The position numbers were made by a program, and so were the translations under genes. Positions 5,878 through 27,800 of a stretch of DNA of 38,348 nucleotides are shown in pieces. The stretch lies in the NCBI GenBank assembly GCA_017510425.1, contig JAFWNJ010000012.1:1-38348 (forward strand). The letters run 5' to 3'. Source of the DNA: Candidatus Saccharimonadota bacterium (GTDB lineage Bacteria > Patescibacteriota > Saccharimonadia > Saccharimonadales > Saccharimonadaceae). The notes beneath the pieces are model-generated. The model ran no database searches and was not told the DNA's origin. It saw only the letters and a program-made list of their open reading frames with translations. Positions within the stretch are counted from its first letter, which is position 1. Every line of letters starts with the position of its first letter.

Positions 5878-5906
5878 TTGATTTTAGTGCAGAATTGCGC
5901 TATAAT
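5878..5906 (+). promoter_or_regulatory. Promoter of the AAA/DUF4143 ATPase
   Basis: TTGATT (5878-5883), a 17-base spacer, TATAAT (5901-5906). The ATG at 5913 is 6 bases downstream, giving a leaderless transcript. Confidence 0.65.
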
Positions 5907-5912
5907 GATGCT

Positions 5913-7130
5913 ATGGAAAGAATGTCATATTTACGATTATTGGACAATTTACGAGATACTCAAGTGATAAAGGTAGTGACCGGTGTACGCCGTTCTGGTA
6001 AGTCTACTTTACTGGAGCAATTTCGTGAGAGATTGATCAAAGGTGGTGTGCCGGAATCTAGAGTTCAGTTTTATAATCTTGAGGATAAACTTAATAAAAG
6101 ATACACCCTGGATGCTGATTTGCTACATGATGATATTTTGAGTGTTCTAGTGCCTGGTGTTATGAATTATATTTTTATAGATGAAGTTCAGCTGATTCCG
6201 GAGTTTGAAAAAACGTTGGACAGTTTGCATTTACGCCAAAATGTTGACCTATATGTCACTGGTTCCAATGCCGATATTACGAGTAGCGAGATTGGGACTT
6301 TGCTTTCGGGCAGATATGTTGAAATTAAAATGCAACCGTTGACTTTTAGCGAATTCTTGCAGTTTTTCCCAGATGGTGAAGTGGATAAATTTGCTAAATT
6401 TCAGACTTTTATGAGATTTGGCGGTTTTCCAGAGGTGGCAAAGTTACTTGCTGCTGGTAGGGATATCGCGGTTGCTCCGTATCTTCGTGGTATTTATGAG
6501 ACAGTTCTTGAAAAAGACATTAAGACAAGAAAAAATATTCGCTTTATGGATGATTTCCGCAATCTGATAAGTTTTACCTTTAACAATATAGGTAGTGTAA
6601 CCTCGCCGAATAATATATCAAATGTTCTTCGTAGTGAAAATCAGGTAATTGACAAATCTACGGTGTCTAACTATCTAGATGCTTTATCGGATTGTTATAT
6701 AATGTATCCGGTTCAAAGATTTGATGTTCGCGGTAAACAGCTCTTAAAAACCTTAGAAAAATATTATGCTGTGGATTTGGGGTTGGTCGATGCGGTGCTT
6801 GGTATGCCTAGTGGCGCTGATGTGGGACATCGTTTGGAAAATATAGTTTTTCTCGAATTATTTAAGCGTTACGATGGTAAAGTGTGGGTGGGTAAGAATT
6901 ACGAGAAGGAGATAGATTTTGTTTGCAAGGATCTGGATGGGACATTGGACTATTATCAGGTTGCTGAGACCGCGGCGAACCCGGAGACGCTTATGCGGGA
7001 ACTCTCTAGTATTGAGAACACTGGAGATAAGTATCGCAAAACTCTATTAACGTTAGATTTAATTGAGACCGATGAATCTGGAGTGGCTAGGCGCAACATT
7101 GTTAATTGGCTTTGCGATGTCGACAAATAA
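5913..7130 (+). CDS. AAA_14/DUF4143 ATPase
   Basis: A 405-residue protein of the widespread AAA plus DUF4143 family, whose cellular role is unsettled. Walker A GVRRSGKST is at residues 24-32 and Walker B YIFIDEVQ at about 86-93; a sensor-like segment, LYVTGSNADI, follows. The middle has the family run of LSGRYVEIKMQPLTFSEFL. The C-terminal DUF4143 part carries a winged-helix-like stretch (STVSNYLDALSDCYIMYPVQRFD) and a nuclease-like end with EIDFVCKD. Such genes are often strain-variable and behave like accessory cargo. Identical 37-base hairpin repeats on both sides fit that view. The ATG at 5913 is chosen from the promoter; the ATG at 5922 is an alternative. Confidence 0.9.
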   Translation: MERMSYLRLLDNLRDTQVIKVVTGVRRSGKSTLLEQFRERLIKGGVPESRVQFYNLEDKLNKRYTLDADLLHDDILSVLVPGVMNYIFIDEVQLIPEFEKTLDSLHLRQNVDLYVTGSNADITSSEIGTLLSGRYVEIKMQPLTFSEFLQFFPDGEVDKFAKFQTFMRFGGFPEVAKLLAAGRDIAVAPYLRGIYETVLEKDIKTRKNIRFMDDFRNLISFTFNNIGSVTSPNNISNVLRSENQVIDKSTVSNYLDALSDCYIMYPVQRFDVRGKQLLKTLEKYYAVDLGLVDAVLGMPSGADVGHRLENIVFLELFKRYDGKVWVGKNYEKEIDFVCKDLDGTLDYYQVAETAANPETLMRELSSIENTGDKYRKTLLTLDLIETDESGVARRNIVNWLCDVDK

Positions 7131-7136
7131 TGCTTG

Positions 7137-7176
7137 AAATCGCGAAAGTCACGGATTTTCTAGACTTTCGCGATTT
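7137..7176. repeat. Hairpin repeat C, right of the AAA ATPase
   Basis: A perfect 14-bp stem: AAATCGCGAAAGTC (7137-7150) with GACTTTCGCGATTT (7163-7176). The 12-base loop is identical to that of repeat B. It begins 7 bases after the ATPase stop codon and could also work as a bidirectional terminator, though no T-run follows. Confidence 0.9.
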
Positions 7177-7197
7177 GGTAGTAATAATGTGCAGCAC

Positions 7198-7232: not shown

Positions 7233-9173
7233 ATGAAATCTAGATTTGTGAGCTTCTTGTTGCCTGGCGGTATGGTAGGAGTGACTGTACTGGTGGGCGG
7301 AATACTAACTCTACCTAAGGCTATGGCAGACGATTCTAGTGTATCTACAGCTACAATTACAGTACCTATGGCCTGTTCTATGTCTAGTACGACCGATACT
7401 GCTCATACAGCAGAAGTCCCTAATGGTATAGATTCCCGTGGACAAGATTATTATCCTGATGGTATTGGACAAACTACACTTAAAGTCTATTGTAATGATA
7501 ATGAAGGATTCTCTGTCTATGCAGTAGGATATTCTGATGATACATTAGGAAATACATATCTTAGAGATAGTACCTTAGGACAAACTAGTGATATTCTAAC
7601 TAGTACTACATTCACTGGTAATACTTCAGCCTGGGCGATGAAGATAGGTGTAACATCTGGTACTTACACTCCTACTATTGCCGGAAGTACTGGAGACTCT
7701 GAGAAACAATCTGGCGATACTGACTATAGTAATTGGGCAGCCGTACCATCTACCTATAATAGAGTAGCCTATAGAAATTCTGGTACTGATGTAGATAATA
7801 ATAGTATCTATACAGAAGGAGCTAGAGTTACTACTACCTATGCTGTCTACATTAGTCCTACCCAGAAAGCTGGTACATATATCGGACAAGTTAAATACAC
7901 CCTACTTCATCCTGCTTCTGAAGAACCATTAAGACCACAACCCTCTACTGCAGGATATATTAATTACTATGCTAATGCTAAGACTGCTGAAGGTACGATG
8001 GGAAGGCAAGCGGCTACTGACGGCAGTACTAAGACATTGTTCGCTTCCAATTTCTCCCGCGAAGGCTATGGCTTCGCAGGCTGGAGTGATGCTTATGATT
8101 ATGAGACTAATCCAAATGCCAACTTCTATGGTCCAAATGAAGACATCACAGTCCCTACTGGTACTACTGCTAATGGACTAGCCCTTTATGCTGTCTGGAT
8201 TAAATCCGCCGGTAATCTTCAAGACCCAAGTAAAGTCGCTGAACTTTGTGGTACTAATGGTAGTTTAACTGCTGCAGTCTATAATGATGAAGACGACCAA
8301 GACGAATCCACTTGGTCCATTAATGCAAATCTATCCAGTATCTCCGCTCTCACCGACACACGAGATAACCAGACCTATGCTATCGCCAAACTCACGGATG
8401 GTAACTGCTGGATGATAGAAAACTTAAGACTAGCTGATACCCATCAGGAAGGAGTAAACACTATACCTACTACTCTTACCGTAGCTAATACTAATAATCC
8501 ATTAAACGATAATGATCCAACTAATCCAACCGTCACACTAAAACATAATTATAGTGACACCGATACCTATCCGACACTCTCCGCTACCAGTTCAGATGCT
8601 ACTAGTTGGTGTACAACTAACTCTGCCGCCTGCTTTGACCAATCTAGACTTAGAACTGATAGTACTGCTAGTAGGGTCTCATACACCAATACCCAGACCA
8701 TGTCTACTAGTGCAAATCTATACTCATATGGCAACTATTATAACTGGTATTCCGTCACAGCAGGAAATGGCACCTATAGCAAGTCTAGCGGTAACACTGC
8801 TGGTGATCTTTGTCCAGCTGGTTGGCATCTTCCGACTGGTACTGGTACTGGTGAATTCGGTGTACTTAGTAATAGCCTTGGTGGCTTGCAAAGCAATGGC
8901 ACGGCACAAACAATGTCCAGCTCAACTTCTCCAACTGTAGCTATAATGCTTAAGAGAATTCGTCATTTCCCGAATAATCTTCTCTACTCGGGCTACGTGA
9001 ATGGCGCCTCCATTAGCAATCGTGGTAGCAACGGGAGCTATTGGTCGTCTACGGCGAACGGTATTAGCAGCGCCTACAACCTGGCCCTCTACTCTTCTAA
9101 CATCTACCCAGGTACAAACGGCAGCAGCAAGTATACCGGAAGGGCGGCCCGCTGTATAGCTAGTGCGCAGTAG
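7233..9173 (+). CDS. Secreted FISUMP-domain protein with InlB-type repeat and variable-looking C-terminus
   Basis: A 646-residue exported protein. The N-terminus is a signal peptide (membrane stretch about 9-27, likely cleavage after MA at 31-32). A beta-rich Ser/Thr domain occupies about 33-235. At about 241-325 lies an InlB B-repeat/Flg_new-like unit (INYYANAK...FAGWSDA...LALYAVWIK). From about 362 to the end is the 'Fibrobacter succinogenes major paralogous domain', seen as TRDNQTYAIAKL, NCWMIENLRL and LCPAGWHLPTGTG, ending in YWSST and AARC. This C-type-lectin-like fold is a common surface-binding scaffold. Base composition changes sharply near 8950, from A/T-rich codons to GC-rich NNC codons. 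Confidence 0.85.
   Translation: MKSRFVSFLLPGGMVGVTVLVGGILTLPKAMADDSSVSTATITVPMACSMSSTTDTAHTAEVPNGIDSRGQDYYPDGIGQTTLKVYCNDNEGFSVYAVGYSDDTLGNTYLRDSTLGQTSDILTSTTFTGNTSAWAMKIGVTSGTYTPTIAGSTGDSEKQSGDTDYSNWAAVPSTYNRVAYRNSGTDVDNNSIYTEGARVTTTYAVYISPTQKAGTYIGQVKYTLLHPASEEPLRPQPSTAGYINYYANAKTAEGTMGRQAATDGSTKTLFASNFSREGYGFAGWSDAYDYETNPNANFYGPNEDITVPTGTTANGLALYAVWIKSAGNLQDPSKVAELCGTNGSLTAAVYNDEDDQDESTWSINANLSSISALTDTRDNQTYAIAKLTDGNCWMIENLRLADTHQEGVNTIPTTLTVANTNNPLNDNDPTNPTVTLKHNYSDTDTYPTLSATSSDATSWCTTNSAACFDQSRLRTDSTASRVSYTNTQTMSTSANLYSYGNYYNWYSVTAGNGTYSKSSGNTAGDLCPAGWHLPTGTGTGEFGVLSNSLGGLQSNGTAQTMSSSTSPTVAIMLKRIRHFPNNLLYSGYVNGASISNRGSNGSYWSSTANGISSAYNLALYSSNIYPGTNGSSKYTGRAARCIASAQ
8955..9161 (+). other. 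Candidate DGR-type variable region in the FISUMP gene
   Basis: The last ~65 codons, around the invariant YWSST, are dominated by AGC, AAC, TAC, GCC, CTC, ATC and GGC. These are the codons expected when adenines of AAC-rich template codons are randomised. The region ends in the GC-rich AGGGCGGCCCGC, which sits where an IMH-like site would. There is no reverse transcriptase or template repeat in this window, so the system would have to act from elsewhere. Confidence 0.45.
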
Positions 9174-9281
9174 TTTTAGCGTAGTTCGGATCAAACAAAG
9201 TCTAATTGAAGCCTTCGATAAGGAGTGTAGGTTTGGGATAAGGATTAGTGAAATTGCCGGTTTAAAATAATGCAAAGATAG

Positions 9282-27310: not shown

Positions 27311-27712
27311 ATGTCAATACAATCTACTGATCAAATTGCCGATCTTATCACGCGAATTCGTAATGCGGTGATAGTAGGCAAAAACGAAATATTAGTTCCG
27401 GCTTCTAAGCTTAAGGCTGGTCTGGTGGAAGTTCTAGCTAAGAATGGCTACGTTAAAGGCTTTGAGATTGTGGAAGAAACTCCACGGAAGCTATTACATG
27501 TCGTAATTAATGAGCCTGGTATGAACGCTAAGATAAGTGAGATTACCAAGGTGTCTAAGCCAGGGCGAAGAGTATATTCATCGGCAGATGAAATACCTAC
27601 GATCAAGTCTGGACGAGGTATGGTTATCGTGTCAACATCGAAGGGCTTGATGACTGGTAAAGAAGCCAAGAAGAATCGGCTGGGCGGTGAAATACTAGTA
27701 AAGGTTTGGTAA
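27311..27712 (+). CDS. rpsH: 30S ribosomal protein S8
   Basis: A 133-residue protein that binds helix 21 of 16S rRNA. TDQIADLITRIRNAVIVGK opens it and GRGMVIVSTSKGLMTGKEAKKNRLGGEILVKVW closes it. AAGGAG lies before the start. It ends the first half of the cluster: a strong terminator follows, instead of rplF. Confidence 0.96.
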   Translation: MSIQSTDQIADLITRIRNAVIVGKNEILVPASKLKAGLVEVLAKNGYVKGFEIVEETPRKLLHVVINEPGMNAKISEITKVSKPGRRVYSSADEIPTIKSGRGMVIVSTSKGLMTGKEAKKNRLGGEILVKVW

Positions 27713-27722
27713 AACGAAAATA

Positions 27723-27771
27723 GCCGGGTTTGGCAAAGCCTAGAAATAGGTTTCTGCCACCCGCTTTTTTG
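27723..27771 (+). terminator. Terminator after rpsH
   Basis: CGGGT plus TGGCA (27725-27735) pair with TGCCA plus CCCG (27755-27763). An inner AAGCCT/AGGTTT stem and a run of six T follow the outer stem. It ends ribosomal transcription before the surface-protein genes. Confidence 0.85.
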
Positions 27772-27800
27772 TTTTGCCAGTTTTGTCATTACGCTTATCG

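Follow-up and report, generated by a model that had tools for sequence, protein, structure and literature searches.

The 3′ end of a FISUMP gene of Candidatus Saccharimonadota, at positions 8985–9160 of the 38,348-nt stretch analysed here (the window), is very probably a variable region (VR) on which a diversity-generating retroelement (DGR) acts in trans, its template (TR) lying outside the assembly. The window is contig C22 of an 840-kb genome in 30 contigs, which is 94% complete. The gene (7233–9173, plus strand) encodes a secreted-type protein of 646 aa with a C-terminal FISUMP (Fib_succ_major) domain, as defined by the ORF and by matches to Pfam Fib_succ_major PF09603 (40.5 bits, curated cut-off 33.9) and NCBIfam FISUMP TIGR02145 (60.2 bits, curated cut-off 41.65). 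With both curated cut-offs passed, the identity that a preliminary description had read from the sequence is confirmed. A signal-like stretch at the N-terminus was seen by direct reading of the sequence, without a prediction tool, and a sequence search of the PDB gave no match for the protein.

The preliminary description had singled out 8955–9173 as a GC-rich C-terminus full of NNC codons, unlike the rest of the gene. These coordinates are correct: they comprise the final 72 codons of the ORF and its stop codon (9171–9173), and the VR sits at the 3′ end of the same ORF. The composition was borne out as well, with a GC content of 0.53 in 8955–9173 and 0.55 in the 59 codons 8985–9161 vs 0.42 in the remaining gene, where no 177-nt window of the gene body exceeded 0.50. 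The share of NNC codons is 49% in the VR core vs 20% in the gene body, and stays at or below 31% in every 59-codon stretch of ten other genes of the window.

The genome holds a DGR, consisting of a reverse transcriptase (RT), an adjacent non-coding TR and five VRs. Its RT is the sole RVT_1 match of the genome in a profile search (54.7 bits, over the cut-off) and is located on the minus strand of contig C15 (46111–47274), in a 389-aa ORF with the DGR motif IGNLTSQ and the motif YVDD, which fit (I/V/L)GxxxSQ and YxDD. The best PDB sequence match was 8ub7, labelled only “Reverse transcriptase”, which we take to be the BPP-1 DGR RT; no second RT was detected in the assembly by protein search up to an E-value of 10. 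Directly 3′ of the RT, on the opposite strand, lies the C15 TR, a non-coding sequence of ~230 nt that reads YSGNFNGSSANNRGSNGNYWSRSANSNNNSYNLNLNSTNLNPSNNNNKNNGFSVRCLIGS. Five VRs on four contigs, C15, C10 (two VRs), C18 and C3, all in FISUMP-type genes, match it. Template A accounts for 110 of the 137 mismatches with these VRs, A making up only ~30% of the TR, and each VR shows 4–7 non-A differences. The preliminary description had noted that the window holds neither RT nor template, and indeed a search of the window gave no RT match and its self-comparison no repeat of the VR with adenine-biased differences. It had further proposed that a DGR-type RT elsewhere in the genome serves the target in trans; one such RT was found, with its TR, on a contig other than that of the window gene.

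Two of the five VRs (C10:25665–25861 and 27596–27772) are found within one frame of 1207 codons, and 17/22 and 23/28 of their mismatches to the C15 TR, respectively, are at A. The C10 protein thus seems to have two FISUMP domains with a VR at the end of each, and the C3 protein may be similar.

In the window gene, the VR core (8985–9143, plus strand) comprises 53 codons that align without gaps to ten TRs from C15 and congeneric genomes. The variable codons are spread over 8994–9136 (plus strand), where 19 positions are AAC/AAT in at least eight of the ten TRs. According to a codon table over these ten TRs, the window copy has retained Asn at 7 of the 19 and is changed at 12, to TAC, AGC, GCC, GGC or ACC; all 12 end in C, which explains the earlier impression of an NNC-rich stretch. 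Between them stands a conserved scaffold of YSG, RG, YWSS, PGT and RC. At its 3′ end the VR is nearly invariant up to and beyond the stop codon (9137–9191, plus strand), and this part is a candidate region for initiation of mutagenic homology (IMH), as suggested by TR/VR homology that extends beyond the stop codon in both C15 and the congener G185. Further downstream of the stop codon, positions 9195–9215 are close to AAGTCYAATTGAAGCC, a sequence common to the C12 paralog of the window gene and to the G185 VR (L130:1432–1455). This stretch falls outside the G185 TR homology and is possibly part of a terminator or homing signal.

Searching the genome with 8900–9173 at the DNA level identified paralogs on C12 (90% identity), C29 (78%) and C4 (74%), so that the near-identical repeat anticipated in the preliminary description exists, though not as the template: the C15 TR is not that of the window VR (see below). 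Comparison with the C12 paralog was the most informative. The two gene bodies (codons 1–536) differ mostly by silent changes (pS 0.32, pN 0.05), whereas nearly all differences in the VR cores are replacements, 22 of them nonsynonymous (pS 0.03, pN 0.18). Within 8967–9164, A is involved in 22 of 25 differences. The core differences are concentrated at codon positions 1–2, with the third-position base kept, and 20 of 23 coincide with columns where eight or more of the ten TRs have A (Fisher P 3.3e−9), a test that sets VR against VR and draws its columns from homologous TRs of this and congeneric genomes, not from the window gene's own TR. The same test with the C15 TR of this genome alone gave P 3.0e−7 and is free of circularity, as that TR was found independently of the C22/C12 comparison. 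This agrees with the earlier expectation that differences would lie at template adenines, and synonymous drift is nearly absent. Throughout 8844–9191 (plus strand), the two genes show few differences other than at template-adenine columns; this tract is homogenised with the C12 paralog and lies next to a diverged gene body. No such homogenisation was seen in the more distant paralogs on C29, C4, C1 and C13, and the DGR system may therefore not act on the whole FISUMP family. As judged from these comparisons, the window gene belongs to a second VR family, apart from the targets of the C15 TR.

For the template of this second family, the assembly was searched with the window VR, with the C15 TR and with an inferred template, i.e., the window VR with AAY codons restored, a query that is thus itself built on the DGR hypothesis. 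Apart from VRs within ORFs and the C15 TR, this recovered nothing but short, weak matches, so that the cognate TR is absent from the 94%-complete, 30-contig assembly. Among 174 congeners, the best match of the inferred template outside its own genome was G185:C46:3769–3958, 88% identical. This repeat is non-coding in the VR frame, its peptide in that frame being YSGNVNGASINNRGSNGNYWSSTVNNSNNAYNLNLNSSNVNPGTNNNNKYNGR. An accessory ORF and an RT follow downstream of it on the same strand. The repeat differs from the FISUMP VR across the operon at template adenines (30/30), and at 19/132 non-A positions from the window VR, which makes it the closest of the 11 TRs tested. Circularity is avoided only where the G185 TR is compared with its neighbouring VR and where the Fisher test uses the C15 TR. 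Based on these alignments, a TR of the window VR family is present in the genus, in G185. We infer that the TR of the window VR, perhaps together with a dedicated RT, is in the unassembled ~6% of the genome, or that the C15 RT serves a second, unassembled TR.

The window VR might instead be a relic, diversified by a past DGR whose TR and RT have since been lost, the gene now drifting like any other. This concerns present activity and not DGR origin, and the probability we assign to it, which is rather low, overlaps with that of the reading preferred here. It is in line with the cognate TR not being found in the assembly and with the resemblance of the C29, C4, C1 and C13 copies to older VRs. 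It also corresponds to the situation in the congeners G003, G018, G026 and G010, whose assemblies contain VR-like FISUMP genes but yielded no RT. G003, at 97% completeness, retains two pairs of such genes with low core pS (0.08 and 0.12) and high pN, the former with a body pS of 0.63; a DGR footprint can thus occur without an assembled RT. Against a relic stand the intact-looking DGR RT on C15 and the low pS of the C22/C12 cores beside their nonsynonymous changes, which implies that the gene body had accumulated nearly all its synonymous divergence before copying from a shared source took place.

That no retroelement acted on the window gene, and that positive selection together with gene conversion among its paralogs produced the pattern, is very improbable. 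The family is indeed large, with 63 matches to the FISUMP domain spread over roughly 30 genes (a count of distinct frames), and the C22/C12 tract is homogenised beyond the VR, as expected of gene conversion. At ~348 nt it is longer than the TR/VR repeats of 207–278 nt in the cassettes examined, and ordinary recombination between paralogs may therefore also have contributed. Yet neither selection nor conversion predicts a concentration of changes on template-A columns, at codon positions 1–2 and with the third base kept, and a template predicted by the DGR hypothesis was found beside the DGR RT operon of a congener. Also very improbable is that the C15 TR templates the window VR directly. No other TR was found in the assembly, it aligns gap-free with all 53 codons of the core, and 19/23 C22/C12 variable columns are A in it; yet it differs at 43/136 non-A positions, vs 4–7 per VR in its true targets, and was rejected.

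Under diversification in trans by a DGR, the reading we favour, a DGR RT that misincorporates opposite template adenines would copy a non-coding RNA template with many AAC/AAT (Asn) codons. The mutated cDNA would then replace the homologous 3′ end in both the window gene and its C12 partner while the scaffold motifs stay unchanged, and by analogy with the known DGR mechanism the invariant end of the VR around the stop codon would act as homing site. The product is inferred to be a displayed or secreted binding protein with a varied ligand site, plausibly serving host-cell attachment or evasion.

Relatives of the C15 RT were detected in 38 of the 60 congeneric species searched, with up to four matches in some, and a DGR rewriting dispersed FISUMP proteins is thus found across the genus. 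Viral contigs yielded no relative of either this RT or the FISUMP domain. In the cassettes examined, 83–100% of the TR/VR mismatches are at A. The cassette of a named relative, Candidatus Saccharibacteria RGIG5788 (JAFWJE010000021.1), combines RT, accessory ORF, TR and FISUMP VR, and 96% of its 25 TR/VR mismatches are at template A. Comparing the layouts of C15, G185:C46 and further congeners, we found the TR 3′ of the RT and convergent with it in most. In G185:C46, the TR is upstream on the RT strand, the VR is at the 3′ end of the RT, and the two form inverted repeats; compared with C15, the accessory-RT segment between the two is inverted. One guess is that the inversion arose by recombination of TR with VR.

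The accessory ORF directly upstream of the RT (L010:11275–12300 in the C15 stretch) has related ORFs that could be aligned from 11 cassettes, C15 included, and share a conserved core. Six of the 11 have an N-terminal HTH_3 domain. Searches of Pfam and PDB and against MutS_I revealed nothing beyond this HTH, with no match to Avd, HRDC or MutS_I by sequence. The DGR accessory proteins known so far are Avd, HRDC and MSL (PMC10053308). Similar ATPase-like genes, with the motif GVRRSGKSTLLEQ / GIRRAGKSSLLEQ, adjoin the window target (window 5895–7130), the C15 TR (L010:8132–9346 in the C15 stretch) and the G185 DGR (L130:4464–5669 in the G185 stretch). Near such genes we additionally observed a short inverted repeat of about GAAATCGCGAAAGTCACGAGATTTCTGGAGTTTCGCGATTTC, at 7130–7180 in the window and at L001:600–725.

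Saccharibacteria depend on binding to host bacteria, and the source bacterium is tiny and probably host-dependent, too. A DGR acting on dispersed FISUMP proteins offers a concrete, testable mechanism by which such organisms could vary their binding surface. More speculatively, the genus might keep a set of ~30 dispersed FISUMP surface proteins. Several TRs, served by a single RT or a small number of them, would rewrite parts of this set, and the targets would outlast an RT cassette that comes and goes and was detected in about two thirds of the searched species. We consider this extended scheme rather doubtful. If true, species lacking the RT may be re-diversified by incoming cassettes, and the whole would constitute an open, modular system of binding-protein variation in a host-dependent bacterium.

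Several elements of this system have precedents. DGRs with remote or multiple targets have been surveyed (PMC3521204, PMC6642488), and TRs on the strand opposite to the RT as well as remote VRs (PMC3521204) and multiple target genes (PMC6642488) are already known. The system described here resembles them in its (I/V/L)GxxxSQ RT, its AAC-rich TR, the A-directed differences, and the C-terminal VRs in several targets, some of them far from the RT. It differs in that the genome did not yield the TR of the window target, in that the targets belong to one large family of FISUMP paralogs in a small-genome bacterium, and in that at least one protein apparently has two FISUMP domains, each with a VR.

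Fib_succ_major and DUF1566 proteins have been described as DGR targets of the human microbiome, on contigs from human metagenomes (PMC4159848). Common to these and the window gene is a C-terminal Fib_succ_major domain of a secreted or surface protein as the presumed diversified domain; here, unlike on those contigs, it is part of a dispersed set of ~30 FISUMP genes in a Saccharibacteria genome. A description of FISUMP DGR targets in Saccharibacteria was not found in the largely open-access literature searched.

The DGRs of CPR/Patescibacteria form a clade of their own, clade 2, in a survey whose approach could not detect remote targets and in which CPR targets were typically without recognisable domains (PMC8144416). 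Ours is likewise a cellular DGR in a bacterium of the candidate phyla radiation, and in contrast to those its targets are remote and carry a recognised domain. Surveys limited to the neighbourhood of the RT miss targets of the kind represented by the window gene.

With inverted (group 4) DGRs (PMC3521204), the C15 cassette shares a TR opposite to the strand of the RT gene. In group 4, TR and VR are on one strand, whereas in the C15 cassette and those of several congeners they flank the accessory-RT operon as inverted repeats facing each other. DGRs as such, targets of the FISUMP type, remote targets and inverted cassettes were thus all known before, and the target in the Saccharibacteria window is a well-supported addition to them.
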